DNA from: Cristatella mucedo
Lineage: Eukaryota > Bryozoa > Phylactolaemata > Cristatellidae
DNA length: 64,000 nucleotides
Assembly: GCA_009760855.2 (NCBI GenBank)
Contig: WPIO01000110.1
Location: 505,501 to 569,500 of the forward strand
Reading direction: 5' to 3'
Shown here piece after piece: positions 12,011 through 55,077 of the stretch (its first letter is position 1; every line of letters begins with the position of its first letter). Under the pieces are notes generated by a model. That model saw nothing but the letters and a program-made list of their open reading frames with translations. It was not told the origin of the DNA and made no database searches. A program made the position numbers and the translations under genes.

Positions 12011-12059
12011 ACCTCTGGGACACCCAAATAGCCTGGTGGAGCTTGCCGTGGCTTCCAGT

Positions 12060-12420
12060 TTCCTAGGTGGCAGGAAGCTTGGGGTTAATACCTGACCAGC
12101 ATCGAGCTGCCAGTGCAGTTTATTTATATGGGCCTTGCTGGGCTTTGAACAGTAGCTGCAGTGGACCTTTCTGTCTGATACGAACTCTTCTTCAGCTCGC
12201 TGACGGGAAAACAACATCCACCACCGTGATTCTCGCAGCTGACTGGTTCTTCCAGGTTGTGGCTAGTTTCCGGCTCTGAGGCTTGGGAAAGCATCCAATC
12301 ATGATCTTCGTGAGCACGAGTGAGCAATGATCTTCCTGATCAGTGAGGCAGATCATTACATCTCGGGCTGATCATCCATCCAGATGGCGAACATGATGCA
12401 GCCGAACCAATACTGCATCA
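12060..12420 (-). pseudogene. Inverted remnant of the cysteine-rich ORF (copy G)
   Basis: On the minus strand, one frame gives DHDWMLSQASEPETSHNLEE followed by PVSCENHGGGCCF. A second frame gives VHCSYCSKPSKAH and AGQVLTPSF. These align to DRDPMLSEAAEP...NLEEPISC...GGGYCFC and IHCQCCSEPSEAF...QVLVQSF of the intact copies at 21777-22343 and 58591-59157. A frameshift separates the two halves. This is the only copy in the opposite orientation, and its DNA is well diverged while the protein-level match stays visible. Confidence 0.7.
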
Positions 12421-14640: not shown

Positions 14641-17228
14641 TATATGACGCTGTCAATCAGCTGACTTCTGCGTTTACTTTGACGTTGCATTGCACTCGAA
14701 GTGGTGGTACGCATTACGGAATATCGTGAAAATTATTAGCGAAATTGAAATCAGGACTGCTAGACAAGCGGTCTAACATTCTGACGGAAAAATTGGTACT
14801 TCTCCACGAAGTACCCGCACAGCCGCGTACACTTGCGCCGAGTAGAAATGGCTGTCAGAGCACTTTTCTGTCTCGCTCTAAGCGTTAAGCTAATCGCCAC
14901 TGACTGCAAAGTTGCGGCTAGCTTCAGCTAACAAGAGAAGGACTGGAACCCTGAAAACGCTTGAACGAGAACCCTGGGCTAGCATCCGGCTTAGTCTATT
15001 ACGCACAAACAGCGAGAAGCGTCTTTGCCCAAGCAAGCTTCAGTAGGCCTGCCGGCTGATCGCTGAATTGAAACCTTGACCTTGGCTGCGGAATTTGGCG
15101 TGATAGTCACTTATGCAATAGTCACCATAAGCCGAGGATTATGATCAGCCCAATGTATGATTGTCTATTAATGACATTATCGCTATAATCATGGCCTGGA
15201 CGTTATATAAGGCGCAGAACTGGGCCGAACTTTTGACTCACGGAGTATCTGCCTATCAGTAGGTGAGTAGTTGAGCTACGCGCGAGCTTTAGTAACTCTG
15301 TAAACGGGTCTTTTGGAAGTCACCTGTCATGTCAGCCGTAATATACGGGCCTTGTTTTTGCTTTTTCTAGTAGGTCTTAGCGTTAGGGCTCGGTGAGAAA
15401 TTTGCTTGTCATTTACATGAGCACAGTAAAAGTCTCTTAATGAATTGCCCTGTAGTTCGCTGCATGGTCTGAACCTCAAGTTGCCACCCATCTATAAAAA
15501 TTGTCGTTACTGGTGATAAATCTGCGATTGAGGGTCAAACTAGAGTAATCTTCTGTTCGCCCAGGCAGGTTACCTGAGATATACTGACTGCCATTGCTGT
15601 AAGACCATCTTTCCGTTACCCTTATGAGATGTTTAGCTTTAAAAGAAACGCTTGAGTTTAAAAGGCCACAACTACGAACAAAAAAAAGAGTTACTGCCAG
15701 ACGAGCAAGAGACCTTCATCGATCAAGTAATTCTCCTTTCAGCTGAGTAAGTATGCCGATAATGGCCCTCCTTTGAGGGGAATAGGACTGTCAAATGATC
15801 TCAGGGGCTTGTCTAACTAAGTCTAGATTCTTGTAATTCATTGTATTAAGGACTTCTTCCTTGTGCCCCAAACCGTCTACAACCTGTGCACAGTCCATTG
15901 CCCGACCGGTCTTTAGTCGACTGGGTAAATGTCACATCTCAATGCTTCCGTGTGAGTTTAACTGAATTCCTATCAAGCGTCGAATCAATTTCAAGATTAA
16001 CTCCGTAGCATGCAGGCCGCTTCACATGCTTGCACCAGTTTACCTATCTAACTTCCCTGTTCTTCCAGTTCAACTCCTGCTACTCAGCGTTGAGTGATCT
16101 GGCTCTTCTTTGCATTGCATTTGCATTTGGCGATTATCTAGCCCTCATCTCGTCGAAGTTTCTCGAGTGCTTTCTTGTGTACCCGTATATCATTTACGAC
16201 AAACGAATATCCTGATGTGTTAAAAACTGGTATCTGTGATTTCGATATTCTTAAGAGAACTTAACCTCTACCTAGGCACTTCATTTGAGCTGGGGGGGAG
16301 CTCATGCCACGACCCGGTCGAGGTGGGTTTCATGTTTTAGAGGTCGTGATCTCTGCGACAAGCAAACATTTTCTAATATGACACGTCACTTCGAGCGCTC
16401 CCTTTGATACCCTTTCGTTTTGCAGGGTCATTTTAACGAGGCTTAGTGTTCAGCTTATTTGAGTCCTCTCAAAGAGGCTGCTCGCCAAAATTTATCTGCT
16501 TCAAGATTTGGGTGGGTGTGTAGAGGGGACTAAAGTCTTTCCAGCGGGCTCTCCTTGGTTGGTTCTCCTTGGTTTAGCCTTCAGAGTACATCGCTTAAGC
16601 CAGATTTACATGGTCAGTCTGGCACTCTGCCTCCTGTCCTACTTCTGTCTTCCTTTTTCTACTGAGTCTAGGCTGTCGGCTTTCTGAAAATGCTTACTTC
16701 CAACCCAATTGGCCATGTGTTTTTCTTGGGAAATTGCATTCATAGAGGCAGGAAATGGCCCTTCTCGTTGAATTTCCTGGCGAATTTTAAGCGTCTGCGA
16801 CTGCTTTTGTAGCCAGCTACCTCACTGTCAGATTCGTGTGCGACTAGCTTGTAGATTCCCATTAACAGCAACTCCTGCAGAAAGCGTCGATGATTTTGCA
16901 ACCCACTGAATTCCCCCTGACTCTTGGCTTTTCAAAGCTATCAAGAAGGCGTGCCCTTGACAGTGCCTGGAGTCGGTCGTTTGCATAGTTGTGATTGAAA
17001 CGTGGCCAAGTAGTAGAACTGCATTTGACTGCTGATTCTTAGTTTAGTTTTTCCATGTCTACAACAGCCTGCCGTATTGGCACCGTTTTGGCTCCGCCGA
17101 ACACTCAAGTAGGTAGGAAGCAGGCAAGAAGCATGACACGCAGGGTACACCTGGCTGCCTAAAACACCTGCTGCCTAAACCCACGCCTCCGCCCCAACCC
17201 CGTGTAAGACGGGTATTCCAGAGGCTAC

Positions 17229-17377
17229 GGCAAACTAGGTAAGGTGGTTGCTTTCACGACCGAGGTCGTGGGTTCGATTCCTGCAGTAGGCGATTCTTTA
17301 TCGCAGCTGCAAGCGGTGGTGATAGCCGTAAAGTTTCTTCTGTCGCTACACAAAAAGAGGCTGTTTAATCAGCTAGG
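17229..17377 (+). mobile_element. SINE family 1, in copy A only
   Basis: GGCAAACTAGGTAAGGTGG, B box GGGTTCGATTCC, tail CTACACAAAAAGAGGCTG followed by a short T run. The 5' head is truncated. Copy E has the uninterrupted site near 53205-53215 (GAGGCTACCAGGAGG), so this copy inserted after A and E separated. Confidence 0.85.
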
Positions 17378-18339
17378 ATTTTTTTACTTACCTGGAGGAA
17401 CCTCGGGAACACCTGCTAGTGAATGGCATCCTCATTGAGGGGTATACAGAGAAGTACTTAGTTTTCAGAAACGAATGCAACATTTAGGACTAATACCAAG
17501 GTGCTACCAGCCAGTAAAATCGTCAGAGCGTTTCGGAAAGAAGGGTAAGGGTTTGCCACAAATGTAAACCGCAGCTGGCCTCGTTCTGGATTTGTGCTAA
17601 TCTGGCAAAAGCACGTGAGGGTAAGAATCGCTAGGCAGGCCAAGTGGAGTAACTCGCTCTTTCGTTACGGAACTGAGCAAGGCAATGCATTATGGCTCCA
17701 AATTTTGGTCAATGGCTCCCGGCACTTTTCAGATACTGACGGCTGCTTCACATTGCAATTCTTTCTAACGGCCTGATCCAGAGCCCACCTTCTCCCGGTA
17801 GGTGCAGCACGTGGCCGCCGCAGCCTTGCCTATTTGCCGGCCAAAAGCCCGAGCTCGATCGATCGAGGCTGCGGCTTTCCTGTCGTGTTTTTCGTGTGAT
17901 TTGGAGCTGCATTGTTGCCGCATTGTTCGCGCCTCGAGCAGCCACCGACGAAGAAGCCATGCCTTTTTGAACTATAGGGCGAGCGTTTTAAGTGTTTGGG
18001 TTTCGTAACCTCCCGCTGAGGCCGAACGGTGCTTGAGCCTGTGTCTATTAATGGGCACCATTACTGCCAGCCTCACCTAGCAAGATTTTATCAATGAGGC
18101 CTGTCCGTTTCTCCGCGAAATGCATCGGTCTTGAGATTGCCAGAGTGACCTATCTGGCCGCCAGCCGACCACCGTGCTCCTCTGAGTCGGACTACGAGAG
18201 GAAATGTAGCACCGAAACCATCTCGTCTTTTTGCTCCCCTCTTTTCTCACTCCCAGCCATACTACAGGTTACTCCATCCCTAAGATGGCATCGACTGCAA
18301 GCCCGTCCGTGAAACGAAGAGAATCCTTTCAGAAACGTC

Positions 18340-18500
18340 ATGCCACACTAAATAGGGAAGTTGATTTTCACAACCTCGGCCCAAGGTCGTGGATTCGAAT
18401 CCCCCAGTAGCAATCCTTTATTGTAGCTTCAAGCGGTGGTGATAGCCGTACAGGCTCTTCTGTCGCTATATAAAAGAGTCTGTTGAATCAACTAGTATTA
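18340..18500 (+). mobile_element. SINE family 1, shared between copies A and E
   Basis: ACCTCGGCCCAAGGTCGTGG, then B box GATTCGAATCC, then GCGGTGGTGATAGCCGTACA and CTATATAAAAGAGTCTG. Copy E holds the same SINE at the same place (54377-54535). Copies D (about 43540) and F (about 61620) lack it. Confidence 0.8.
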
Positions 18501-19025
18501 CGATAACTTACACACAAAAAAGGGTATTTTGGTGTTAAATTATTGCAATCAGTATATTGAATATGAGTAACCTGTCCGTATCCAGTGCATAAGTTAATTT
18601 ACTTTACTGCACCTCTACTTTTTGTTCTGTGCGTTTTTAAAGACTACAAGACATGATTTCAAGCCCGTGTGAAGTATTTGTATGCAATGAAACGCTAATT
18701 GTGACTCACGGTTACGACATTTGTATATCGGCCTAGGGGAGTAAAATCTGAATCAAGGTACTTTCCGTTTTTGGCACGGGAAAGGCTACATGTTGTTAGT
18801 GATGACATAGATAACGTCGGCAGGCATATACACACAAATTTCAATTTTAACGAATCAGAAATATGCAGGGGAAATCTTTTCAGCTTCGCGTTAAATTTCC
18901 TTGAGTAGTTAGATCTTATGACAGCCATGAGTGATTTCCAGCTATATGGAGCGTGCGAACTGGTGCCAGGGTCTCCAAACGTTAAAGGTTCGTTCTAGTC
19001 ACTGCTTAGGCAGTAGATCTGTAAG

Positions 19026-19050
19026 GGGAGAGAGAGAGAGAGAGTGAGAG

Positions 19051-19099
<49 letters not shown>

Positions 19100-19114
19100 G
19101 AGAGAGAGAGAGAC
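19026..19114. repeat. (GA)n microsatellite, unit copy A
   Basis: Nearly pure GA, about 89 bp. The equivalent tract occurs at the same place in copies D (44092-44240) and E (55078-55121), so it belongs to the unit. Confidence 0.97.
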
Positions 19115-21776
19115 TGGTGCGTCGTTGGGGCGGCTAACTATAGTTGGAAAGCTGTGGGGTTGTATTAACTGTAAGCGCCCTCTGAGAGTGCTGAGGTACT
19201 GAAATTCAGTCGGATTTCTTGGGCAAATGCCTCTGACGGCTTAGTTATATAGTTGACAAAATAATTAATAATTTAATGAACCTATTTCATGGGCATGCAA
19301 CAATCCCCGGGGACTTTGTCTTACTTACCAAAGAAAGTTACCAGGCATGTTTCAATCACAAGGGCAATCAAGGAACTAAGTAGCAGAGAGGCAGCGACTA
19401 AAGCTGGTTAAAAAGTATTTGCCTTGGTTAGCAGATCGAACAATAGTGCTGCCGCTTAAGAATTTTCAGAATGATTTTATTAGTATAGGACCTTTACAGC
19501 AAACCTTTATGCCGCCTGTAGTCTTTATAAAAAAAAGAATGGAACTGCTCATTCACCGTCTATAGCAAATCTGAGGGAGCCGGATGCTTAAAGCAGCTAC
19601 AGTAGCTCAGGTAGCTAGCTATGAAAGAGCAGAACCAATGCGTACCTTATGAGACCTAGTAAGAATTTTACCCTAAACCTGTTGATGAACCACCAGTCAT
19701 CGCAGCTACTTTAGCATAGCAGATGCGTGGCTCAACCTCTGTGAATTGTGCATCTAATTTGAAGCCATATTCTTCACCAGCTGCCGAATCCGACTAGACG
19801 TTTTTGCTAGCCCCAGAAAAACCATCTAGACAGTGTCAGATAGCTAGTTGTGGTGTGGTGGACGTTGCTTAGAGTCAGACAAGGCTCTATCCCGATGGTT
19901 TTCTGAAGGTGATATTAGTAGAGAACCTAAACGAGTCATCTTTGTTCAGGAAGGTCAATATTTTGCAATTTTACATAGCTGTAAGTACGCAGACTTGACT
20001 TTCGATTTAATTTTGTCAGGTTAAAAAATTTACTTTTGAACGAAACACCCAATTGGGTTTGAGTTGCTACAGAATATATCCCGGCCGAACAAGTTTCGAG
20101 AGTAATTCTTCACATTTGCTGTGGAAGATTTTTGCATAGTCAGTAGTAGAGTTATATCTTTGTTCAATTAGAGGTAGTTTCCAGCCGTCAAATTGCGAAT
20201 CTCAGCAGGAAGCTGTGCAAGAGAGAGTTTGATCAATCTGTTGAGAAAGTTTGACTTACTGCAAGCAGTAACCGTTCAAAGCTTAGTCATTTGCACAAGT
20301 AGGAACTACTCGATTGTCTGTTGTCGACAATTACATCGGCAAGAGCATCCCTGGTGACAATGAGGGATGATATTGGCATCTCAATCTGTAGAGAATCAGC
20401 ACTCTATGCAGTGACGAGATTTTCTGTATCCCTTGACGGCTAAAATATTAATAATACATGTACACTTAACGCAATTCCTTTGGAACTAATCATATGCCAA
20501 AACAGTGTAGCTGGCTGCACCTCTCCGGTCAGGCCTCGGTTCGAAATAAAGTCATGAGAGAAGGTGATCTCGAATCATAGGCTGTACATGTCGCAGCGAT
20601 GAAGTCATTAACGATCGGATTTGTGATATGTTCGGTGTCATTCCATACTAAAATAAACAAGTAGAAAGGCTCTAGTGCCAGCATGCCACAGCTTGGCTTA
20701 AAACGCTGACTCGCGTTCATGCTTTGATACATGTTCGGGCATGCATCGAAAGTTCCATGGAACATAATAAAGTGCACTAGGACTAAAGGGCTGCTAAACT
20801 TGGCCGAAAGCGAGTACTAGAAGAGAAGCGTACCAGACTTTCGGTGCTTAAGACGTTGAAGCTTTGAGGAGTTGTACCTGTGCATATCCTCAAATCCAGC
20901 AGCACTTTTGACGTGCACTCAATTGCATTCAATTCTCAAAATCCGTGCCTGATAAATTATGCAATGTAAACATGGACATTCTTAGCAAATGATATGCAAG
21001 AGTACCCATTTCTGCATTATTTAAGCCAAAGAAAAGGTAACCATTTGACTAATAACGTGGGAGATGGCTGCTTGCCGTTGCTTGGTATTAAGAGCAACGC
21101 ATTGACCTTTATAAACTCAGCAAGATATTGTGGAGCAAACTCCTGTTGGACATTTTAGATCAACTAAAGAGCCGAGACGACTATTCTGTTTTGGAGTGGT
21201 TTTGAAATCGCTTCTTTTTGCAACCATTCTCCGCTTGATGTCGGCAAGGATGGAAACGTAATAGTTTGACCTCGTAATCAAGGTTCTCGCCCTTAACGAC
21301 CAAGGTCAGGGAAAATGGATTTGGAGCCCGATGTCACATGACTTGGAGCCCAGTGGCGCCGGCGGAGCAGCTGAATACTGACAGGGTTGTCTTGGAGCAC
21401 TACAGAAAATTAATTGCATTCGTAAATATACAGAGTTTCACTGCTGAAACTGCATGGAAGAATAGTGACTACGGTTCATTGCAGTAGCGACGGCTGACAA
21501 ACGCTCGTCCGTCCCTAGAGGCTAAGCACTTTCTCTGCCGTATTTTGCAAAGTACTTCGTACCCATACATTTTCGAGAGAAGCAATATCTTCCTGTTCTG
21601 AAAACGGATGACATTTTTTCGCTTGGATTCGTCGCTCTCCAGCACTGTTGCTTACTTGCTTTTATTTAAGGTTGACATTCAGAGGTAACTCCTTGCATGC
21701 ATTGGCTGCATTCGTGCTGCATTGCTGCTGCCTGTGCTGCTGGGCCTCGAGCTCGCCTAGCACTCGATCTGTAGAT

Positions 21777-22343
21777 ATGACTTCGAGGCGACTTATACCA
21801 AACAAAAACGCAAGCCGAACGACGAAACAAGCAAGCGGACCTGAAATTCTGCCAGCGAGCGGGCGGAGCACTGATATCCTTCGGGTCGACAGCGGCCGGA
21901 TGAGAAACGAAGCACTGCTGCAAGTTCGTCCGAGCCAGCCGGCTATAGCACAGGCTGGGCAGCCGGCACCGGCTGCCGAAGAACCGATACCTCGTATAGA
22001 GCTGATGGAGAGTCCGTACGGCTGCTCCCTGTTCGGCATCGGGTTCATCATTCGGCCTGATCCTCTCAAAGTTCTACTTCATGATCGCGATCCGATGCTG
22101 TCTGAAGCTGCCGAGCCACAAACTGGCCGAAACCTTGAGGAGCCAATCAGCTGCCAGTCCCATGGTGGAGGATATTGTTTCTGCATCGGTGCACCGGGCT
22201 ACTGTGCCTGCACTGATAGTGAGATCCATTGTCAGTGCTGCTCGGAGCCAAGCGAGGCTTTCGTTGGTAATCTGCAGCGGCGGTTCAAGTATCCTCAGGT
22301 ATTAGTCCAAAGCTTCGAGCCAGCTATGTATCCGGGCCGATAG
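21777..22343 (+). CDS. Cysteine-rich protein ORF, copy A (188 codons)
   Basis: I do not recognise the family. The frame from ATG 21777 to TAG encodes 188 residues, exactly as in copy E. It has a basic N-terminal part (about residues 1-45), a Pro/Ala-rich middle (about 50-70), then YGCSLFGIGF at 81-90 and a cysteine module with Cys at 126, 134, 136, 143, 145, 152, 154 and 155. The C-terminus ends YPGR. This Met is the start chosen because an aligned Met occurs in copies B, D and E. The frame stays open upstream to an ATG at 21648 and includes a hydrophobic, Cys-rich stretch (ALAAFVLHCCCLCCW), so the true start could be earlier, as a signal-like leader, or this could be an exon. It sits about 500 bp before a solo LTR. 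It may be a gene-family exon or a mobile-element protein. Confidence 0.5.
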   Translation: MTSRRLIPNKNASRTTKQASGPEILPASGRSTDILRVDSGRMRNEALLQVRPSQPAIAQAGQPAPAAEEPIPRIELMESPYGCSLFGIGFIIRPDPLKVLLHDRDPMLSEAAEPQTGRNLEEPISCQSHGGGYCFCIGAPGYCACTDSEIHCQCCSEPSEAFVGNLQRRFKYPQVLVQSFEPAMYPGR

Positions 22344-22834
22344 GAGCGCTTTACCGGGCAGAGCTGTTCAGTGTTCCTAGATTTTCAGAGAGCTAGCTGC
22401 ACTGTGCCTGCCCCATCGCTCGGTCATGGATACGCCGGAAGTCGATCGCTGGTGCACATGATTCGATTTTAACGTTTGCAGTGATTGACCTGAGTCATCT
22501 ACGGCGGCGTTACCAGCGTTCAAGAAAGCGCTTGGCTTCTACCGGTACAAGTAGAGCGGATACTGATACAGCAAACTGAGCAGGTCACCTCGATCGCTTG
22601 AAGCATCTCGTCACATGCCTCCTCATCAGCGTCTATTAAATGTTCGCCGAATTTCGCATGTGTAAGATTTCGTCAGCAAATATAAACGCATGCAGTAAGT
22701 TGACAATACGTTCTAGTCAATTCCGGCGGGCTGCTACAGCCACGGTTTGGCAGCTTAGTGTGAGCTACGCTCAATCAGCCGGGACAGTTGTATGATGGTT
22801 CAGTAACTTCAATCACTTTAGAGAGGCATAAAGA

Positions 22835-23670
22835 TGTAACCGCATAGAGAAGGTCGTCCACCGGTTCTCTACCGGTAGACTGTGCTATGCATTGCTGCGG
22901 TGCGTTTAAAACACAGGCGGCCACAACTGGGTGCCGAAAGCAACAGTTTATTGTGGGCCTGTTAGTAGTGGTTACGTGACGACCCAAGCGCTTTACGCGG
23001 CGGGAACCGGACCGACGGAGTTAACTGAGTGAACTCCTGAAGCCCGACTATAATAAACTATCCTATGAGCGAGTCGCTAGCGATTGTCCCAACCCCGAAG
23101 GCGAGCCGCTACAGCACCCCAAGATACGAGCAGCTAACTGACTAGCCGGCATAACACAACTGCAGTCTAAGTTGCACTTAGCTGTCCGTCGCCGTAGGTT
23201 CGTCTCTCGTGCTCTCGAAGCGTAGTCTCGCATCGACTACCGAAGCTGCAGCCGTGCACTCGCGGCCTAGTCTCTGCTCGACTACCCAAGCTGTCACCGT
23301 GAGCTCTGTCACTCGTCTCATTATATTCTCTATCCTCTAAACTCCTGACCTCGCACGGGTAGCTACTATTTTCACTTCAGCATATTAGTCGGTTTGCATC
23401 CTGACCACAACGTCTGCACCAGGCTTCATTCTAACTTTAGCGGGTAGACCAGGAGCCGGGCCTGCACTAGTTGTTCAAGTCGAACCCGCGACAACCCAAG
23501 ACAACCAAATTAGTCGCTCCATCTCCTAACCGCATCGCCTGCATAAAGCTCCATTCTAACCTGAGCTTGGTGAGTCAGGAGCTGGGTCTGTACTAGGTGC
23601 CCTATTCACCCCCCCCCCCTCCTAAGGCAAGGGCTCCCATCGCGGCTAAGCTGAGGGCTGCACCAGTGCA
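22835..23670. mobile_element. Solo LTR, 836 bp
   Basis: Begins TGTAACCGCA, ends CACCAGTGCA and is flanked by AAGA on both sides (22831-22834 and 23671-23674), a 4-bp target-site duplication. Copy E has the uninterrupted site at about 59639-59658 (GGCATAAAGAGATACTTGGG). Inside are TATAATAAACT near 23050 (polyadenylation-like), a CCCC run near 23610, and two related 115-120-bp stretches (about 23390-23505 and 23506-23620). No ORF. Its parent element is not in the window. Confidence 0.8.
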
Positions 23671-24858
23671 AAGAGATGCTTGGGCAAGAGCGACTCTATA
23701 CAGTCACTGCTGAGGTAAGATCAGCAGGGCCATCCAGCTACGTACGAAGTTGGGGTCCTCGAGGGCACTAAAGACAGCCACGTCTTCAGTCGGAGGCAGT
23801 CATGGCTAAACGCAAACACGGTACAGCGACGAAGAACTGCAGACGCGCCTACTTCACTTAGCTTTTTCAGTTTCCTGAGCCCAGCTATCGGGGATCCTCC
23901 AAGATTCCTTTCTCTTCGGGTGACGGCCGTTTCGCCGTCATGAAAGGTTTCAGAGCTGGGCATGGCTTCAGTTAAAAGTTGTCTTTTTAATTACTGCGTA
24001 CTAGCAGCAAATCTGACCGTGGTGCTGCGATTAGCTCTAAAACCAGAATATAACTAAGTTGCAAGGTTTGTTGCTAAGATATAATAGTTATACTGGCCCA
24101 CAACCACTTTCGGTGGTTTATTTAATTGGGTCATCACGAGGTGAGTTAATACACCCGGCTGTCGATTTCTTGCGAACCAAACTACAAATTAATTACAGCT
24201 GCAATGCCCTCAATTATGAACTGATAGTTTGAACGGCTGATCGGCGAATGCAAACTATTACTTCCGCCGCTTGATATGTACTGTGGGCCACTCGTGAAAG
24301 TAGCTGCCATTAGCCGAAATGAGCATGACGATTTTTGATCATTTACGAATGAGACTATCGCATTAATTATGACCTGATCGTTATAAAGGACGCGGGCTTA
24401 AATAGTTAGATTTTAATTAAAGACTTGGGCGAAAAAGGACGGACCATTAAGGAAGTATCGTAGCTTAGATCTGTGAATACTTGTTTAAATCGTGACCTTC
24501 AAATGAAGGTGCTGCAAATATGTAACTTGTAGTCACTGGATTGGGTAAGATTAGATTATGTCCACTAAGATAGATAGATGCATATACTTTCACGAATCGG
24601 AGGTGCTAGTATAAAGTAAACCGTTAGTCAATGTGATTTCCTTCGGCATTCGCTGCTCGCCGCTCACCACCGGCTGCTTGTTTTGCTTACGTGGCCGATA
24701 GGCTCATGCAAGTTGTTGAGCTGCCGTTCGGGATAGCCCATTCGGCGAGGCTGCAAGCTCGGCCTACGTTAATAGCACTATTACAATCAATCGTGAAAAA
24801 AATTTCTGCAGCATACTTTCTCTGCAGCTAATGTTAAGACGGTTTGTATTTAAGTGCA

Positions 24859-26008: not shown

Positions 26009-26246
26009 ATGAGTTCAAAGAAAAACGAAAAAACGATTGCAAATGGACCTGCAAGCCGTTCAGGAATGCTCAGTGCGCAACATCAACATCATCTTATTGG
26101 CTGTCACGAAGGCCCGGTCGGCTACACCGGCTGTGGCCGTGGTTAATCTGCCACAAAAGCTGACCTTTCGGCCCCACCGTTGCTCTTGTCTGCTCCACGA
26201 TCACGACCCGTCGCTCAACGAAGCCGCCGAGCTGGAAAATGCCTGC
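26009..26246 (+). pseudogene. Cysteine-rich ORF remnant, copy B, 5' part
   Basis: The ATG at 26009 opens MSSKK...ANGPASRS, aligned with MDSKR...ASGPASRP of copy D and MSSRR...ASGP of copy E. Further on, another frame gives LLHDHDPSLNEAAELE against LLHDRDPMLSEAAEP. The frame is then cut by the LTR element at 26252; the 3' part lies at 30636-30710. Confidence 0.65.
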
Positions 26247-26251
26247 CCCTG

Positions 26252-26576
26252 TGTGGTCTGAGTATATGCAGGCCGGTACTGCTCCTTTCGTAAACAGCTG
26301 TTAGGAGCATCGCCGGCGGTGCAAAGCTGTGGTCTACCTGTGGTGTGGCTTGGACAGGCCGGTAACCACAGTCAGATGGTGGATTCACCATCGGGGTCGG
26401 CCACAGCACAGCTGTTGGCGAGGAGAGGGGATTCAAGCGGGAGAGAGGGGCGAGTGAAGTAGTGCTCCCTCTGCTCTGTAGTAGAATAAACTGTTGGTGT
26501 TGGTTCTGTGAGGGCGTTCTTCGTGCAAGGCGTTCTTCGTGCAAGGCATTCTTCGTGCAAGGCGCATCGAAGCACA
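26252..26576 (+). repeat. 5' LTR
   Basis: Starts TGTGGTCTGAG, ends CGAAGCACA. Has AGAATAAACT (about 26483) as a polyadenylation-like signal and three 16-bp repeats GGCGTTCTTCGTGCAA at 26513-26560, against two in the 3' LTR. Confidence 0.9.
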
Positions 26577-26590
26577 AGCTATTTCGTGGG

Positions 26591-27817
26591 ATGGAGTCGA
26601 TGGCATCAATGGTAATGCTAGGCAAAATCGCACCTTATGACGGAAAAACGGACTTCGTCGCGTGGGTACGTCGACTGGACTCTGTGGCCAAGACGAACAA
26701 GGTTAAAGATGACGATCTTGCCGTACCCATGCCCTTGTATTTAACTGGCGGAGCTTTTGCCGTCTATCAAGGGCTGGTGGACAGTGATAAAAGTGACTAT
26801 ACGAAGGTGAAACGCACACTCAGCGCCGCGTTTTTGCCCGATTGCTTCCGCACGTACGACGAGCAATCGAGCAGAAAACTTCGCGAGGGTAAGTCACCAG
26901 ACGTCTACTTGGCCGACCTTGTTCGCTTGGCGTCCATTGTCTTTGCTGCTCAAGTGGGAGCACCTGTGTATCCCCCGGAGTCTTTGCTGAAGTGTGCATT
27001 TGTGTCGGGCCTACCCGGTGACGTAAAGCGGCAACTTCGAGCAGCGTGCTCGCTTACCAAAGCTGATTTGCCCGTGCTGGTTGAAATGTTGAGAAACTGT
27101 GTCTCGTCAAGTGAGGCATGTCTCGCCGCCGGCTGTTTCGAAGATCGACGCGCTCAGACCCGTGGCGTCGTGGTACAGTCTAGGCCGGAATCGCAAAGGC
27201 GATACACCGACTGGCCTTTTCCCAGCGCGCCACACATGCGACTTTGCTGGATCTGCTGCGATCCGAATCATCTAGCTGCTGCGTGTGGTAAAAAGTTCGA
27301 CGATAAAAAACGACTAAGGGGAACCGCCAACACCTGTGCCAGCGTGTTCCCCTTGACTTCGAGGCGACTTGCCTTCGTTGGCGTAATGTTGAATGACCAG
27401 CTCGCTACTGCACTTGTCGACACCGGCTGCTCCCGCACGGTGCTTGCATCAGTGCTGGCCTCCTCTCGTGATCTGCAGCCTGCGAGGGAGGGTATCTTGA
27501 TGATGAACGGTGACCGCACTCTCTGTACCTCTACGTGTAAGGTCAGTTTGTTAATTAAAGGAGAACCTCTGGAGTTTAATTGTTTGGTGACCGATCTAAT
27601 TGCTGTCTGGGACATCATCCTTAGGCGGCGTCCGGTGCACGGTGGTGAAGGCCAAGTTGACTTCGGTAATGAGGCTCCAGCCACCCGATGCATCCGCGGC
27701 GAAAGAAACAGTGTAACATGCCCTCGCTCTGCCCCGGCCACCGACGTCTCGCTCGTTGCAAAGGTCAGAAATTCGAGCGAGTTTACAGTCTCCGACAAAG
27801 ATTCTACTGCCGTATAA
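26591..27817 (+). CDS. gag: gag-protease polyprotein of the LTR retrotransposon
   Basis: Open for 408 codons. The ATG at 26591 (MESMASM) is chosen because it lies 14 bases after the LTR and has a counterpart (MEPM) in the minus-strand element; the frame extends upstream only into LTR sequence. The N-terminal half is capsid-like (APYDGKTDFVAWVRRLD near the start, then LPGDVKRQLRAAC). A CCHC zinc knuckle lies at residues 219-232 (C-x2-C-x4-H-x4-C). An aspartic protease follows, with its catalytic triad ALVDTGCSRTVL at about 274-285 (DTG at 277-279) and a degenerate LIAVWDIIL strand. Its product would form the particle core and cleave the polyprotein in cytoplasm. The stop at 27815-27817 separates it from pol, whose start is frameshifted. 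Confidence 0.88.
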   Translation: MESMASMVMLGKIAPYDGKTDFVAWVRRLDSVAKTNKVKDDDLAVPMPLYLTGGAFAVYQGLVDSDKSDYTKVKRTLSAAFLPDCFRTYDEQSSRKLREGKSPDVYLADLVRLASIVFAAQVGAPVYPPESLLKCAFVSGLPGDVKRQLRAACSLTKADLPVLVEMLRNCVSSSEACLAAGCFEDRRAQTRGVVVQSRPESQRRYTDWPFPSAPHMRLCWICCDPNHLAAACGKKFDDKKRLRGTANTCASVFPLTSRRLAFVGVMLNDQLATALVDTGCSRTVLASVLASSRDLQPAREGILMMNGDRTLCTSTCKVSLLIKGEPLEFNCLVTDLIAVWDIILRRRPVHGGEGQVDFGNEAPATRCIRGERNSVTCPRSAPATDVSLVAKVRNSSEFTVSDKDSTAV

Positions 27818-27879
27818 CATGATGGCGCGTGGCACGTGTGCTGGAACTAGAAAGAAGGAGTACAGGCCCCCTTGCTGCA

Positions 27880-30108
27880 GAACCGCGTGTCCTCATATTG
27901 CATACCGGCTGAGGTAGAAGCAGAATATGAACGGGAAGCGGAGGACCAGATAAAGCGTGGTTGGCTTCAACCTTCTCACGGGATTGCAGTGGGCTGATTC
28001 CCTTGATGGCAGTGGTCCAAAGCAGCAAAGGGAAAGTGAGGCCCGTCCTCGACTATGGTGAGCTCAACCAGTTTGTGTCAAGCCACACGGCTGAAGGGGA
28101 CGTGTGCAGTAAGAAGCTTCTTGCATGGCGGCGAATGGGACGAAACGTAAGTGTCGTGGACCTGCATAAGGCCTATTTGCAAATTCACATAGAACCATCA
28201 TTGTGGAAGTACCAGGTGGTTGGATTTCATGGCCGCCGATACTGTCTGACCCGCCTGGATTGCGGACTTAATGTGGCAGCAACAATAATGACTGTTATCT
28301 TAAATAAAGCGCTGTCTATGGATGAGTGGGTCAGATCCGGCAAGGATTCGTATGTTGACGATATTTTGGAGAACTATGATATCGTCTCAAGCGACCGTGT
28401 GATCGAGCTTCTCCGCGAGTACGGACTTGAAGCAAAACCACCTGAAAAGTTAGAGTGTGGTCGTTTCCTAGGCCTCGGCATTGACAGCAAACGCAACGAG
28501 CTCGTATGGCGCCGAGATAATGCCATATGCTCCGTACAGTCAGTACTGACGCGGCGAGAATTATTTTGTTGGTGTGGGCAACTCGTCGGGCATTTTCCGG
28601 TAGCCGGCTGGCTGCGACCCGCTTGCAGTTTCCACAAACGTTTAGTCAGCGATCAGGACTGGGACAGCAAAGTGCCGAGTGAGGTTCTGGAAATTACTCA
28701 CGACGTCCATCGCAGGGTGCTAGCTTCTGGTCCGATGACTGGCGCCTGGCAGGTATCCAATGTCGTCAGTGGAAACATGTGGTGCAATGCGAGCAGCATC
28801 TCTATTGGAACGTGCCTTGAGATTGACGGTAAAGTGGTTGAGGATGCCTCGTGGCTTCGAAAGCCGGACGATACTTCGCATATAAACACTGCCGAGCTAG
28901 AAGCCGTCATCGAATGCCTTAACATCGCTATTGCATGGGGACTTCAGAAAGTCCAAATCGTGACTGGTTCGACTTCGGTGTTTAGTTGGCTGAAGTCATT
29001 GATCGATAGGGATAAACCCGTAAGGACTCGCGGCATGGGAGAGACGATAATTGGACGACGATTGGGCCTACTCCGAGATATTATAACGGAGTGCCATCTG
29101 GAGACGACTGTAAGCCTAGTAAGGCCGCTGGAGAACAAAGCGGACCAGCTGACGCGAGTAACCCAAAGGTGGTTGAAGTTCACGACTTGCTCTACCGGTG
29201 CCGTCGCTCCTGAGGTCAGTTTGGCGGCTCCCAATATCGACCTTAAGCAATTACACAATTTGCACCACCTGGGCGTTGACAGGACGCTATACCTGGCGAG
29301 GCTATGTCACCCTAATGCGAGCATCCGCAGAACCGATGTAGAACGAATTGTTCGTTCCTGTCTTCTCTGCAGATCAGTGGATCCGTCGCCGATTTCATGG
29401 CAGCGAGGCAGTCTAGACGTCACCATACCCTGGTCTTGTCTTGCGATCGATGTCACACACTACCACGATGAGAAATATCTGACGTTGGTGGATTGTGGGC
29501 CCAGCAGATTTACGCTATGGCGGCGCATTCCTATCGAAGAGGTGCACTTTATTACCAGAGTTGCTGGAGCCAATCTTTCGAGAGAGAGGCCCACCTACAC
29601 AGCTTCTGATGGACAACAGCGCCTCGCTCCCATCTGAGACAGTTCGGCGTCTCTGCGAACGCTGGGGCATTGAGACCATCTACTGGTGTGCTTACCGACC
29701 GGAAGGCAACGGCATAGTCGAATGCATGCATCGGACTATCAACGGCATGGCAGCTCGCAGCGGCAGAGGAGTACTAAATATGGTGTACTAGTACGATTCG
29801 GCACCGAATAAAGGGATAATGGGTGAAACTGTGCCTCACAGGCGGTTATTTACACATGAATGGCGGTTCCCACTCAGCAGAAGACACAGCACTGCAATGC
29901 CCAATCAGCCATTAACTACACAGCGGGCCGAAGGGTTTTTGTAAAACCAGCCGATGCACGGTGTACATCAGAATGGCCGGAAGGGATTGTAACCTCGGGG
30001 ACTCACTGCCTTGGTGTGGAGGTGAACGGAATCCGAAGACATGTGTCGGACGTCAATCTAGTTCCGGACGCTGAGCCAGTATTACCGGCTCAGCTGCCAG
30101 CACCCTAA
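27880..30108 (+). pseudogene. pol: pol (RT, RNase H, integrase), frameshifted
   Basis: The RT begins in one frame (IPAEVEAEYEREAEDQIKRG, about 27900-27960), then shifts near 27990 to the frame open from 27961 to 29637. There: VRPVLDYGELNQF, VVDLHKAYLQI, and the YVDD box at 28351. RNase H follows, with changed active-site residues: WCNASS where Asp is expected (Asn at 28786) and VTGSTSV where TDS is expected (Gly at 28966). The integrase zinc region (HHLGVDRTLYLAR...C-x2-C) is at about 29260-29370 and LAIDVTHY at about 29440. A frameshift near 29535 moves the rest to another frame with LLMDNSAS and NGIVECMHRTI, completing the DDE triad. Stops at about 29790 and 29935 precede the C-terminal part (VFVKPADARCTSEWPEG, VEVNGIRRHV). 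Confidence 0.9.
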
Positions 30109-30324
30109 CAGATAAGAGGCGAAGATGATGAGTATGATGGAACAGAGGAAATGGGGCGGCCACCAGCTTCACATGCGGTCGGAAATGCAGCACCCTCGTT
30201 GGTTCTCCGCCTACGTCACGGACTGATCTGTACGTCAGGGGAACAGAGAGCCTGTTTAAACGATGGTACAGTGCAGCTACTTGCATTGCAGCTAAAAACT
30301 TGTGACTTTAAGGTCAAGGGAGCG

Positions 30325-30630
30325 CGTGGTCTGAGTATATGCAGGCCAGTACCGCTCCTTTCGTAAACAGCTGTTAGGAGCATCACAGGCAGTGCAAAGC
30401 TGTGGTCCGCCTGTGGTGGCTTGGACAGGCCGGTAACCACAGTCAGATGGTGGATTCACCATCGGGGTCGGCCACAGCACAGCTGTGGGCGAGGAGAGGC
30501 ATTCAAGCTGGAAAGAGGGGCGAGTGAAGTAGTGATCCCTCTGCTCTGCAATAGAATAAACTGTTGGTGTTGGTTCTGTGCTGGCGTTCTTCATGCAAGG
30601 CGTTCTTCGTGCAAGTCGAATCGAAGCACA
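30325..30630 (+). repeat. 3' LTR
   Basis: Aligned with the 5' LTR throughout. It begins CGTGGTCTGAG (the first T changed to C) and ends CGAAGCACA. It has two 16-bp terminal repeats. Confidence 0.9.
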
Positions 30631-30635
30631 CCCTG

Positions 30636-30710
30636 ACGGACCCGTCAGTTGGGAGTCGCAAGGCTGTGTGTATTGTTTTAGAGTCGGTGCACTGGGCTAC
30701 TGTGCATGCA
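30636..30710 (+). pseudogene. Cysteine-rich ORF remnant, copy B, 3' part
   Basis: Encodes GPVSWESQGCVYCFRVGALG followed by YCAC, aligned with EPISCQSHGGGYCFCIGAPG and YCAC. Cut off by a family 1 SINE at 30711. Together with 26009-26246 it shows that two retroelements landed in one ORF copy. Confidence 0.75.
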
Positions 30711-30885
30711 TGGTGAGCCGTGATGGCACACTAGGTAAGGCGGTTGCTTATACGACCTCGGTTCCGAGGTCGTGGGTTCGATTCCTGCGGTGGGCGATTA
30801 TTTATCACCAATGGAAGCGGTGGTGATAGCCCTAAAAAGGCTCTTCTGTCGCTATACAAAAAGAGGCTGTTTAATCAGCTAGGAT
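30711..30885 (+). mobile_element. SINE family 1, most complete copy
   Basis: Full head TGGTGAGCCGTGATGGCACA, A-box-like TAGGTAAGGCGG, arm GACCTCGGTTCCGAGGTC, B box GGGTTCGATTCC, then TGCGGTGGGCGATTATTTAT, GCGGTGGTGATAGCC, tail CTATACAAAAAGAGGCTG ending TTTAATCAGCTAGGAT. Flanks GCATGCA and GCATCAA may be an imperfect duplication. Confidence 0.88.
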
Positions 30886-31509
30886 GCATCAATACTGAGG
30901 TCCACTGATACTGCTGGCCAAAGCCTGGCAAGGCCGCTATGGTTGAGCGGCAATGGTAGTTCAATAATCGTCTGGTAATACCCTGTAGCTTCGTGCCGGC
31001 TAAGACTCTGGTCGCATAGGAGCACTTTGCCGACCAGTTCCGATCTAGGATGCTTAGACGTAAGAGGGGCGAAACCCACTGAGCCTGAGTCTGAGCATGA
31101 GCCATCGCACGGTCGTTCAAACGGCTGAAGTCGATCACTGGTGCACACGATTTGACTTTGGCGTTTTTAGTAATCAGCCTAAGACAGCTACGGCGGCGTC
31201 AGCAGCTTTAGAGAATGCGTTTCACTCCTTTTCAATACAAGTTGAGCTGATAACGGTGACGTTGCGTCGGCAGATGATTTTCCCTCGGCTTGAATCTAGA
31301 GCTGCGAATTCAAGCTAGACGAAGGATTTGCTTTTTGATATAAAGAAAAAAGCTCGCCAACGAGCTGCACATCTTTCTACATTGTCAGCATGGTGGACTG
31401 TGATTTGCTCTATCTACCCGCCTGCCAGAGCCAGTAGGTACGATTGTCTTATCCACCAAGTCATCTGACGCTCTGACGGCATGCAAATGACGAAAAGGAA
31501 ACACCGAAG

Positions 31510-35020: not shown

Positions 35021-35440
35021 TTAGGCAAATCTATATTTATGTAACTATAGCTTGGCTAGCGTTTTCATCTTTGATGATGGCCATCGTAAAATATAAAGTA
35101 GATAGACCTATTCTGAGATGTGCTATATGAGCCACTGGTATTCTTACTTGCTGTCCTAATTTGCCTTGAATTCAAGAGCGCTTTGATCCAATAAAGGGCC
35201 ACACACCATTTTAGCTAACAATATTGTCATACTTTTTTATTAACCCAGCTATAGTAATCAGAGGTTATTTTTAAGCTAGCATAGGAAGTCGAAAAGTTCA
35301 TCCTTGCATGCAAAGAATAGTCAGAATAGAAAATGTTTGTAACGAGGGGGATAAGGATTGGACGTTGACTTTAAATTTAAGAGAGAGTCGCCGACCTTCC
35401 ATCTCTTAGCCTTTTTACTGTGGTGGACATTGTTTTCGAA

Positions 35441-35985
35441 TTAGTGAGCTGAGAAAGAACATTTGCACCGACAACAAGATCCACTGCATCTACTGTTCGG
35501 TTCCTTCAAGCCTCCATAAGTAAACTGCACAGCAGACAGCTCGATGCTAGTCACTGGTATTCGTAGTGGTGTATTGGTATTGGTATTGGAATTGTGTATT
35601 GGTATGTATTGGTTGTGGTATTTGACAGCAGCTTCCAGCCACCAAGGAATCTGGAAGCCTCGGCAAGCTCCACCCGGCCGGTGGACTGTCTCAGAGCTCA
35701 CAGGTCATATAGATAAGTCACAGGGCCTTCATCGGCATGACTTGCTCCTGCCAAAAGCCTTATAGTAGCCATCTATGCACACATTTTTTTTCAAAGCAGC
35801 CAGATAGCTCAAAGCCAAGTAACTGGTACAAATATACCTCATTAATGATTTCTTATTTGTATTAGTTAAATAAATTCAAAAGACCTGCTACAACGTTGAA
35901 TGAGCTTCCGATAAGCATGAACTTTTTTAATTCACTGCTAGCATACAAAAGTCACCAAACGCGTTGGTGCCTTGCAAACGCTTGA
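35441..35985. other. No gene recognised
   Basis: Apart from the TATTGG repeat, no motif or match to other parts of the window was seen. Confidence 0.4.
35548..35627. repeat. Degenerate (TATTGG)n simple repeat
   Basis: Repeated TATTGG/TGGTAT units with interruptions. Confidence 0.85.
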
Positions 35986-41050: not shown

Positions 41051-41275
41051 TCATTTGGCTGCTCTTTATTTGGCATCGGGCTGATCATCCAGCACGCTCC
41101 TTCAACAGTTCTGCTGATCTATCGTGACCCGATCCTAACCGAAGCTGCCGAGCCAAAAGCTGACAGCCTTGACAAGCCTGCTAGCTGTCATGCTCGGGGC
41201 GGCAGATGCTTTTGTGTCGGTGCACTGGGCTACTGCTCGTGCACTGACAGCACAGTTCACGGCCAGTGCTGCTAG
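41051..41275 (+). pseudogene. Cysteine-rich ORF, copy C (partial, still open)
   Basis: Encodes SFGCSLFGIGLII, then DPILTEAAEP, then the cysteine module CFCVGALGYCSCTD...GQCC, ending at TAG. Relative to copy A, many differences in the best-conserved stretches are third-position (TCC/TCT, CTG/TTA, TTC/TTT; TGT TTC TGC/TGC TTT TGT; GAT/GAC; AGT/AGC). One module cysteine is Gly, and the C-terminal about 30 residues are lost by the early stop. The open frame extends upstream to 40916, but the N-terminal half does not align well. It is either a truncated functional member or a relic. Confidence 0.6.
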
Positions 41276-42412
41276 ACACGGTCACTTTGAGTGTCCGGCG
41301 ACGGCAGTTCAACGCTCGTGGCGTATTATGCCAATGTTTTGCGCTTGCAAAGCAACTGGACAGATAGGAGGAGTACTTAGCTGACCAGCCCCAGGCTGTG
41401 CTACTTTGATGTTCAAGGAGCCATTGCCATTTAGCCTGAGCCCGAGCTGTCCTGTGGTCGTGTATCCATCGGAAGTTGATCGCTTGTAAACACGGCTATA
41501 TGTTGACGTTAGCAGTGATCGGCCTGGGTCAACTGTAGCAATGTCAGCAGCATTGAATGAAGCGATTCTCTTATTTGAAATACAATTTGAGCTTGACTGG
41601 GGACATTGCTGCCGAAGATGTGGTTTATTTTGGCTTGAATCTCTGGCTAACCAATCATGATAGACCAACGATTGGCTTTTACAAAAAGGAAAATGCTCTC
41701 CAACTAGTAGAGAATCTTTCTAGTTCGGCGTCTTCTTGGATGCCTGTGGCGAGATCTAGGGATTGGCTCGACTATGCAAGTCAATACGATTGCCTTGTGC
41801 ATATCGTCACGTGCCTCATCAGTTGCTTCTTCGTAATTTTCGACGAATTTTACCCAAGAACTCGGCATATATCAACGTAGCTACCTAGCTGACAGTGTAA
41901 TTGTCAATAATTTCAGGGTCCTGTTGCAGCAATTGTTGTTTAGCTTGGTGTGGTCTTAGCTCAAACAGCCTTGCAGGCTTTACAATAGTTAGATAACTTA
42001 GAATGTTTTAAAGAGGCATTCAGCAATGCTTGAGTAAGAGCGACCTTAGGTGGCCAGTGGCTGGCCTCAGCTACAAAAACCAAGGCCACCCTGGTCTGTA
42101 CGTAGGCGACGCCCTCGAGATTACTGCAGACTGCCAGGTCTTCATTCGGAGGCTGGCATTGCTAACCGTTACAACGGCAGAGTGGCAGCCGGCAGCAGAC
42201 ACGCCTACTTCTGTAATATCAGCTTACGGGTTCTGGTGCCCTGCTAGCGAACAATGCTGTCACGACCGTGCTCTTCGAGTTACCACTGGGCAGGCTTACG
42301 CTCAGGAATCTCTGAATCGCAAATAAAGCTTTAACTGTCAGCTCCTCACCAAAATATTAGTAGCCCCACAGGCGAAAAGTTGGCCAGTTACACAATCGAA
42401 CTGATGAAGTAT

Positions 42413-43110
42413 CAATTAATTTAGATTACTGCAACCATTGGCAGCTTGTTCTCGGAGGTACTTAAAACAAGATTTTAAAGATTGCTTTGTGGGACTGAAA
42501 TGGTTTGCAATTAAGAGAGGAACGGGTGAAAATGGTGACTTCTGTGCAGTTTTAATTGATCTATGGGTATGAAAGAACGAGAAACCCGTCGTCGTGGCGT
42601 CGGCTATACTCGGACTGTTTTCGACTTCAGCCACGTCTCAATATAAGCGAGCAAGTCAAGATCAACATCAACCACAATCTCTTGTGTTATAAGGGGTTCA
42701 TTTACACGGTGAACGAACCTTCCGAGGACAAGCATACGTTTGGCTGCAGGGGAAAATCCTAGTGTAAATGCTAGTCAGAGTAAACTCCTGGCGCTGCTGC
42801 TACTCAGTTGTCCATGGTAGCTAAAAGGAATTCGTGAGTAAGCATTAAGTGCATTTTGAAACAGGTGTTGGCCTACGGAGAGATGCTGGGAAGAAAATGC
42901 CGTGGGCCAGTATGCACACAGTATGGTGAGCGTTACGATAGCCGTCACGGTTCACATGCAACAATTGTAAAGAGGCTGCCAATCAGCTGACTTCTATGTT
43001 AACTTTGAAGCTGTATTGCACTCGAAGTGATGCGCATTAAGGAACTTCAAGAATATTATCGGAAATGCCAGACAAGTGGTTTATCATTCTGACGGAAAAG
43101 AGGTACTTTG
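42413..43110 (+). repeat. 698-bp direct duplicate, left copy
   Basis: Matches 47220-47917 with about three differences (for example AAACAGG/AAACTGG and CAACAATTG/CAGCAATTG), about 99.6 percent identity. No TG...CA ends and no flanking duplication, so it is not an LTR pair. Confidence 0.95.
42556..42780 (+). pseudogene. FLYWCH-type zinc-finger-like fragment (left copy)
   Basis: A frame reads HNLLCYKGFIYTVNEPSEDK followed by HTFGCRGKS, then a TAG codon, then CKC. The order L-x-Y-x-G-F-x-Y...F-x-C-R...C-K resembles a FLYWCH domain, with Phe instead of the usual Trp, no visible His end, and a stop inside. FLYWCH domains occur in some chromatin proteins and in Mutator-like transposases. The assignment rests on motif spacing only. 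Confidence 0.3.
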
Positions 43111-44661: not shown

Positions 44662-45245
44662 ATGGATTCAAAGCGAAAGGTAACAAAGGTTGCAAGCGGA
44701 CCGGCAAGCAGACCTGCATATTGACTGGCAAGTTGACGTGCAAGTGGACTGGAAAGTGGACCTAGAAGCACACCTGCAAGCGGACCGGCAAGTGAACCTG
44801 CAAACGGACCGGCACGCGGATCAACAAGCGGACCAAAAAGCGGACCGACAATCGGGCAGCACACTATTACGATCCGAATCGTCGGCGGCCTGGTGAGAAG
44901 AGAGACGCTGCAGCAAGCTCGACCGAGCCACTTGGCAGTAACTCCACCAATGACTGCTGCACCAGCAGTGGCTAGGGCAGCGAATCGGTCGCCGGAGCTG
45001 ATGAAGTATCTGTTCGGCTGCTCTCTGCACGGAATCGGACTGATCAATTCACCCAATCCTCACACCGTTCTGCTATGCGATTTCCACCCGACACTCTCCG
45101 AAGCCGCTAGCTGGAAACTGACGGTAACCTGATGGAACCCGTCAGCTGCCACTCTCACAGCAGCTGTTATTGTTTTTGCATCAGTTTACCGGGCTATTTC
45201 ACAAGCACCGACAGCGATATCACTGCCAATGCTGCTCAAAGTCAA
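44662..45245 (+). pseudogene. Cysteine-rich ORF, copy D (broken)
   Basis: ATG at 44662 gives MDSKRKVTKVASGPASRPA, then two stops. The middle is expanded by repeats of a GCAAGCGGACCG-type unit (SGPAS-like) that A and E do not have. In the same frame LQQARPSHLA, SPELMKYLFGCSLHGIGL and HPTLSEA align to the intact copies. An indel then shifts to a frame with PVSCHSHSSCYCFCISLPGY. Cysteines of the third cluster are lost. Confidence 0.7.
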
Positions 45246-45339
45246 GTAAGGTCGCTACGAATAACCTGCACACGTGGTTCAATCCTCTTCAAGTATTTGC
45301 CCAAAGCTTCATGTCGGCTTAGCAGCTGTCGCTCAGCTG

Positions 45340-47219: not shown

Positions 47220-47917
47220 AAATTAATTTAGATTACTGCAACCATTGGCAGCTTGTTCTCGGAGGTACTTAAAACAAGATTTTAAAGATTGCTTTGTGGG
47301 ACTGAAATGGTTTGCAATTAAGAGAGGAACGGGTGAAAATGGTGACTTCTGTGCAGTTTTAATTGATCTATGGGTATGAAAGAACGAGAAACCCGTCGTC
47401 GTGGCGTCGGCTATACTCGGACTGTTTTCGACTTCAGCCACGTCTCAATATAAGCGAGCAAGTCAAGATCAACATCAACCACAATCTCTTGTGTTATAAG
47501 GGGTTCATTTACACGGTGAACGAACCTTCCGAGGACAAGCATACGTTTGGCTGCAGGGGAAAATCCTAGTGTAAATGCTAGTCAGAGTAAACTCCTGGCG
47601 CTGCTGCTACTCAGTTGTCCATGGTAGCTAAAAGGAATTCGTGAGTAAGCATTAAGTGCATTTTGAAACTGGTGTTGGCCTACGGAGAGATGCTGGGAAG
47701 AAAATGCCGTGGGCCAGTATGCACACAGTATGGTGAGCGTTACGATAGCCGTCACGGTTCACATGCAGCAATTGTAAAGAGGCTGCCAATCAACTGACTT
47801 CTATGTTAACTTTGAAGCTGTATTGCACTCGAAGTGATGCGCATTAAGGAACTTCAAGAATATTATCGGAAATGCCAGACAAGTGGTTTATCATTCTGAC
47901 GGAAAAGAGGTACTTTT
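47220..47917 (+). repeat. 698-bp direct duplicate, right copy
   Basis: Twin of 42413-43110, carrying the same FLYWCH-like fragment (47363-47587). It marks the start of copy E, directly after unassigned sequence and a LINE fragment. Confidence 0.95.
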
Positions 47918-50239: not shown

Positions 50240-50560
50240 TCGATTGTCTATTCAACTCTTGTCGATGCTGGAGCGTTGTTTAATTTTTTTACCATATTTC
50301 ACCACATTTTTTTACCATTTGTTTACCCTGCTTTTACCAAATCAGTTCTTGTGCCTATTTACTCAAGTTCAAACCACTATTCTTGCGAAAAAAGTACATC
50401 CGTGGACAAGTTTCTTACCACAACCTTAAAGATTTACATCGCCACCTGTTTCGGTACGCCGCCTGATCGTTTGTGGAATCATTTTTTTGTGAAAAGTGCC
50501 CCTCTTTCGACATTGAAAAGAGTTTTTTTATTTAAATTACCTTAAGTCTTAACAGCAAGC
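50240..50560 (+). pseudogene. Probable LINE C-terminal fragment
   Basis: One frame ends with RLWNHFFVKSAPLSTLKRVF then LFKLP, resembling the LWNSLP...TFK..LKT..F end of L2/CR1 ORF2. Upstream similarity is weak. Confidence 0.45.
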
Positions 50561-51080
50561 AGGCATCCTCTGCCTTTCCAATTGATCCTCCCTCCGACCT
50601 AATTTCTTTTATACGATGCTAGCAAGTTAACGTACGCCATAGACCTTAGTTAGCTTGCCACTTGCCATTATTCGATGCATAGGCCTGAACGAAGTCCCTC
50701 TCATGGAGCAACGGTCTACTAGTCGGTGAGTTATAACGCTGAACGTGTTCTGCTCTAAATGTGTAGACGATTCTATGGAAAGCCAACTGTCGCAAAATAC
50801 TTTCATGTTTGAACCAACAGGGCCTAGCTCGGCTTCTCATTCGACTGCTGGAATCCTGGCTACACCCCCACTCGGATTCCCTTTATTCAGCAACTGCCTG
50901 CAAGGTGGGCATTTGCAATTTGATTCCTAATTACTTCCTGATACGGTAGCTCCAACCAGCGATTTTTCGGGAAAACCTGTAATTACGTGAAAGCCAATAG
51001 CCAGAGCTTGCAGCTCGCTAGGATAAGCGCCACTACCTCGACGATAGCTCGCGATCGAAACGTCCCAATCAAAAATCGAT
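50561..51080. other. Unassigned segment of copy E
   Basis: No match found in the other unit copies and no motif. Either unit sequence deleted elsewhere, or an insertion. Confidence 0.35.
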
Positions 51081-51462: not shown

Positions 51463-51500
51463 ACTCCTACTCCTCAGAGCTTACTCTGAGGAGTAGGAGT
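51463..51500. repeat. Perfect 17-bp-arm hairpin
   Basis: Left arm ACTCCTACTCCTCAGAG, loop CTTA, right arm CTCTGAGGAGTAGGAGT. Copy A has only a weak quasi-palindrome at the homologous place (about 16070-16105). Confidence 0.97.

Positions 51501-55075: not shown

Positions 55076-55077
<2 letters not shown>

Follow-up and report, generated by a model that had tools for sequence, protein, structure and literature searches.

The chorion and keratin-associated gene clusters hold cysteine-rich members, and pseudogenes and gene conversion occur within them. Among cysteine-rich modules, the Tesmin/TSO1 CXC domain has the spacing YCxC-x5-YC, and in the thyroglobulin type-1 domain (Tg1; PF00086; thyropins, MEROPS I31) Gln-Cys precedes the GxCWC motif and, in the third part of the domain, Gly-Thr follows CWCV. 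A published account of Tg1 describes a conserved Trp-Cys-Val motif, and three disulfides for subtype 1A (PMC10889554). The silkmoth chorion locus (PMC4639761) and the keratin-associated protein clusters (PMC2528016, PMC4180150) are local gene clusters, as is the bryozoan locus described in this study, which is ordinary in kind; compared with the 127 genes annotated at the chorion locus (PMC4639761), it has at most two intact frames, and it is likened to these clusters by description, not by sequence.

We analysed a 64-kb stretch of Cristatella mucedo DNA (C12:505501–569500; hereafter the window) within the 572-Mb assembly. As the preliminary description had reported, it contains two open frames of exactly 188 codons, A and B (Table 1), whose proteins are 85.6% identical and which lie inside an ungapped block that belongs in turn to a more extended collinear duplication (14646–24225 versus 47779–60263). 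Inside the frame there is no indel between A and B or between A and a copy on contig C108, and of all copies found, only A and B retain the frame intact over its whole length. A signal-peptide-like stretch upstream of the ATG is open in A and B but carries no codon signal, and led no further. With a probability of about 0.78, we read the locus as a lineage-specific protein-coding family whose local multiplication came about through tandem and inverted segmental duplication and whose copies are dying one by one.

Table 1 Features of the family in the window (positions are those of the window).
Feature	Position	Strand	Evidence or remark
Broken copy, opposite orientation	12055–12351	−	Profile E 3.9e-39
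Ungapped A/B block, 1178 bp	21657–22834 (partner 58471–59648)	+	90.9% identical (DNA)
Copy A, intact 188-codon frame	21777–22343	+	Frame free of indels relative to B and the C108 copy
Copy A, frame part with weak, non-significant coding signal	21906–22079	+	All-branch p 0.11
Copy A core, cysteine-rich, protein-coding selection	22080–22265	+	z 7.7; fine map; internal-branch omega ~0.54
Split copy, 5' piece (split by LTR retroelement)	26158–26245	+	Profile E 1.3e-12
Split copy, second piece, ended by SINE-like insert (about 30711–30882)	30629–30710	+	Core profile
Split copy, third piece	30885–31021	+	Profile E 3.1e-19
Seventh copy, partial	35418–35562	+	Profile E 7.6e-8; also by genome protein search (C12:540904)
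Broken copy, core mostly open; near-identical partner at C12:497493	41057–41369	+	Core profile; z 6.0
Broken copy, two frame breaks in core	45016–45328	+	Core profile
Copy B, intact 188-codon frame	58591–59157	+	209 codons if started at upstream ATG 58528
Copy B core	58894–59079	+	z 7.0 at 58895, ORF frame

A profile of the core found seven copies in the window; the preliminary description had counted six, missing the partial one (35418–35562), and was right that both orientations occur. The remnants listed there were recovered by tblastn with the two intact proteins as queries (E 6e-30 to 0.002 in the window, the weakest being the split copy) and, at the same places, by the core profile with E 1.5e-12 or better, so they are not chance matches. 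One of them, 44662–45245, holds a genuine copy that needs three frames (44.8–45.3 kb), and part of its reported span (44692–44855) is a 12-bp tandem array. A further tandem array, with 42-bp units, lies in a C12 copy near 463.3 kb; both units are multiples of three, and both expansions sit in the N-terminal part of their copies.

Other repeats were noted in the window. The LTR retroelement inside the split copy (26253–30615) has LTRs about 93% identical (26253–26545, 30326–30615), and one of its frames matches DUF7047 and an RNase H-like reverse-transcriptase model. The SINE-like repeat at 30711–30882 contains a tRNA-like box, is flanked by ATGCAT (30706–30711 and 30884–30889) and recurs at 8041, 13666, 17229 and 54362. 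A 696-bp repeat pair (42414–43109 and 47221–47916) is 99.6% identical, marking a very recent duplication or insertion. The mitochondrial COX1 points to an animal host; in it TGA must be read as Trp and, judged against other COX1 sequences, we take the same code to read AGR as Ser and AAA as Lys.

A search of the genome, as proposed in the preliminary description, found 21 distinct core copies, 19 of them on C12 within 431–565 kb (a cluster of ~133 kb) and two on C108. One more, on C185, is a near-duplicate (99.1% identity over 1.6 kb) of a copy on C108 and was left out of these counts. Whole-genome protein searches gave at least 20, at least 20 and at least 26 matches, with weaker ones (E 0.001 to 3.5) on C12, C108, C185, C45, C497, C222, C376, C44, C676 and C668. 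The profile search, which covered C12:385501–609500, C108:33001–73000 and two 2-kb pieces, gave 33 matches; nine at E 0.005–0.08 were dropped, three were merged as one split copy, and core-less pieces such as that at C12 443.6–444.4 kb were excluded. On C12, all six copies at 431–478 kb are on the minus strand, and 12 of the 13 at 488–565 kb are on the plus strand. In the alignment the core is free of stops and frame shifts in six of the 21 copies; the other 15 are partial or have a core disrupted by a stop or frame shift, and a C108 copy has two stops near its end. Separately, C12 491.8–501.2 and 540.9–551.7 kb form a recent segmental duplication that carries family copies, 93–97% identical in pieces.

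Coding selection is seen when all copies are compared. A codon-position scan of 2102 overlapping 150-bp windows in three regions placed its highest score (z 7.7) at 22085, in the frame of the ORF, and with copy B or the 41-kb copy as the query the regional maxima again fell in this frame, at 58895 and 41110; the three peaks are not independent, since the same relatives stand behind all of them. The next-best places reached z values of up to 4.5 and held no recognised gene, and most of their translations contain stops. Mapped in 30-bp steps, the codon signal is confined to 22080–22260. Among 11 copies, the third-position excess gave p 0.08 over the whole ORF and 0.002 for 21981–22340, and that for 22131–22280 was matched by none of 2000 shuffles. 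In several pairs of diverged copies, DNA identity is also highest over the core and lower on both sides.

Substitutions over 22080–22265 were counted on a 21-tip tree by parsimony, a rough method. Internal branches carry 93 silent, 141 replacement and 8 stop changes (omega ~0.54, p 5e-6), compared with 58, 170 and 9 on terminal branches (omega ~1.05, p 0.65). From this contrast, the core of ~62 codons is a once-functional coding segment whose copies have mostly decayed, with the purifying selection on old branches and decay on young ones that mark birth and death. The contrast is weaker in a 10-tip tree, where omega was 0.50 on internal (p 0.0014) and 0.69 on terminal branches (p 0.02); the latter are not fully neutral, and it is therefore not equally clear for each copy that it is dead.

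Pairwise comparisons gave a similar picture. Among the 36 pairs of nine copies, two had no dS; core omega in the other 34 lay between 0.00 and 0.79, and was below 0.45 in 29. A permutation test on another nine-copy set found fewer core amino-acid changes than random placement, in the ORF frame, in all 35 testable pairs (z 0.6 to 4.2). The pairs as a whole are not independent; z was 3.7, 2.2, 2.8 and 3.3 in four pairs built from entirely different copies. A neutral open frame was ruled out by these tests on the core, and the suggestion in the preliminary description that a recurring, cysteine-rich, real coding sequence is present holds by descent, through the selection signal of the core.

The argument on which that suggestion rested does not carry over. 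A and B differ by 40 mismatches, distributed 17/9/14 over codon positions 1/2/3, and by 27 amino acids, which is what random placement of 40 substitutions predicts (28.7 ± 2.6); protein similarity follows DNA similarity, so that its survival is not itself proof of coding. Near-neutral dN/dS, which had been named as grounds against a gene, is almost reached by this pair over the whole frame (0.73 by NG86, 0.82 by YN00), but not by the core. It is a plausible, if less than even, proposition that all copies, A and B included, are relics whose apparent intactness reflects recent homogenisation by gene conversion. The two are 91% identical over the block and 66% in the upstream flank, their divergence is minimal over ~22137–22500 in coding and non-coding sequence alike, they match each other as closely over the 150 bases 3' of the stop as over the core, and every other copy found is either partial or disrupted at some point of the frame by a stop or frame shift. 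The similarity over ~22137–22500 suggests gene conversion. Against a relic status for A and B, however, their cores differ by four bases and one residue (p 0.07), and none of their substitutions created a stop, although 40% of random placements do so.

Selection does not extend over the whole 188-codon frame, which the preliminary description had taken to be one conserved protein: beyond the core a weak signal appears upstream of it (Table 1), and no protein-level selection was detected in codons 1–43 (all-branch p 0.78) or in the last 25 codons (p 0.15), neither of which shows a signal in any frame. It is possible, although we consider it unlikely, that the gene has several exons and the core is just one of them, the remainder of the frame being intronic or untranslated and open by chance in A, B and the C108 copy. 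Such an exon would account for the neutral codons 1–43 and for the rather sharp edges of the identity peak and codon signal near 22080 and 22265, and some C12 cores do lie ~1 kb apart (431–433 and 488.9–491.9 kb), as repeated exons might. Several features of the frame nevertheless point the other way: the ATG is kept in six of the seven copies translated there and the stop at 22341 in all ten with letters at that position, frame 0 is the sole stop-free plus frame of the three in A, B and the C108 copy, and inspection by eye revealed no pair of splice sites that recurs consistently at the edges of the core in the different copies. Moreover, when B, the C108 copy and a further copy, D, are compared with A, the 564-nt frame holds two indels, both in D and both multiples of three (−12, +126), and none in the other two, whereas the surrounding 604 nt hold ten distinct indels in these copies, seven of them not multiples of three (the frame-shifted copy E was omitted from the count). 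The N-terminal part has no stops in A, B and the C108 copy and one in D; it is either a loosely constrained portion of the protein or accidentally open beside a conserved exon. In a search for further exons of the unit, the 45 listed of 1532 pairwise tests were mainly LINE-like frames and the family itself, with some unassigned frames. The exon and the all-relic interpretations are finer versions within the birth-and-death explanation, and their odds overlap.

That the repeat is non-coding, as regulatory DNA or a structured RNA whose frame is open by chance, is largely excluded for the core and altogether improbable. Conservation does run into and past the tail of the frame with no codon pattern: over 22272–22345, mean pairwise identity across copies is 0.66–0.74 in 12-bp steps, and 22344–22500 is conserved mainly between A and B, with 0.53–0.87 in other pairs. 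In the older copies this suggests some nucleotide-level constraint on the tail. A minus-strand frame at 21662–22051 is open in both A and B as well, and the family has no Pfam match beyond chance. The codon-position and silent-excess tests, however, pick the ORF's own frame, and on the 21-tip tree the other two plus frames of the core show no silent excess. One minus frame gave p 0.0007 on internal branches, which is expected because it shares its wobble column with the ORF frame, but it has several stops in the cores of A and B. We found no Rfam match at gathering scores, which ruled out a described structured-RNA family.

The least credible alternative, that the family is the protein of a transposable element, would fit the many copies in both orientations, the transposon-rich region and the 45-kb copy that runs into a LINE endonuclease-like frame (Exo_endo_phos E 0.04, below the curated score), but the whole-genome protein searches of 572 Mb gave no match at E ≤0.001 outside C12 431–565 kb and C108, several copies travel within longer duplicated blocks, and one is interrupted by the region's transposons. 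Because its copies are confined in this way (with the near-duplicate on C185), this is a local gene family and not a dispersed transposon.

The preliminary description called the ORF undescribed, and we likewise found no described family in the libraries searched, with no match to P0001 in NCBIfam or PHROGs at E up to 10 or in Pfam at E up to 1. Pfam hits among family members were limited to DUF6796 and Abhydrolase_3, at chance level (E 0.27–0.3), and viral, prokaryote and phage collections contained no relatives, which is expected of an animal genome. The family therefore appears new in sequence as far as the collections searched show, the literature searches not having been aimed at its sequence. 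It has the YCxC-x5-YC spacing in common with the Tesmin/TSO1 CXC domain, but the remaining pattern differs and Pfam gave no such match.

The single lead comes from the Tg1 domain, which the family motif, roughly P-[VI]-x-C-x(6,7)-GYC-[FW]-C-[VI]-x-x-x-G, resembles. Searched against the Protein Data Bank at E up to 10, a nine-copy profile weakly matched saxiphilin alone (E 0.19), across two Tg1 repeats. Against the lead, the majority sequence matched nothing there, and a search with P0001 returned a Ras-interacting protein alone (E 0.73). Aligning the family with Tg1 by hhalign gave a probability of 74% with nine Tg1 pieces and 43% with thirteen; the score was reached by none of 200 column shuffles, none of 200 cysteine-fixed shuffles and none of 100 shuffles with the larger Tg1 set, figures that are not a blind test, as the lead was chosen after the fact. 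When 7098 open frames of the region were ranked by a Tg1 profile, two near-identical family copies came first (E 0.02), followed by unrelated frames (E 0.17 and 0.2). Among reversed frames the best value was E 0.4. Neither A nor B was among the 25 best frames.

Several features differ from Tg1. The match covers just 20–22 columns, and the family has Phe-Cys-Val/Ile in place of Trp-Cys-Val, with Phe in 18 of the 20 copies that have letters there. For the Gln-Cys of Tg1 the picture is mixed: the cysteine at 22152, which hhalign aligns, is present in 11 of 17 copies and is preceded by Ser, not Gln. The aligned stretch also lacks the Gly-Thr of Tg1 and has a second cysteine cluster, CxC-x6-CxCC, in its place. 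No PF00086 match was obtained at E up to 1 for either 188-codon ORF, nor at E up to 10 for the copies in the window, for nine members taken from the alignment or for two majority sequences, in searches whose filters may drop weak matches. Across the genome, ten of 25 scored candidates matched PF00086 at E ≤0.001, none of them on C12 or C108. We take the resemblance as a lead and not as evidence that the family belongs to PF00086.

Taken as birth and death, the history of the locus would begin with an ancestral protein gene that multiplied locally via tandem and inverted segmental duplication, its core held under protein selection on the older branches while later copies broke down. Its product may have been small and held together by disulfides or a bound metal through the CxC and CxCC cysteines, and the remaining frame would have been a loosely constrained linker or have lain outside the mature protein. 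As a tentative suggestion drawn from sequence comparison, it may have functioned as a module for binding or inhibition that is related to the Tg1 domain or resembles it. More speculatively still, and with little confidence, the cluster might be the remains of a small-protein family built on a re-modelled Tg1 half-domain, its last loop replaced by a second cysteine ladder, that served as a fast-turning-over local set of inhibitors or binding proteins, with A and B as its putative last working members.

The locus illustrates how, within a decayed repeat cluster, a family lacking any recognised relative can be distinguished from frames that are open by chance: judged by A and B alone it appears neutral, and it is the surrounding dead copies that preserve a record of past protein-level selection on the core. 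Should the resemblance to Tg1 hold, the family would represent a greatly modified version of that domain that expanded locally, and expression of A or B would make it a small protein family for study, together with its own pseudogene record.
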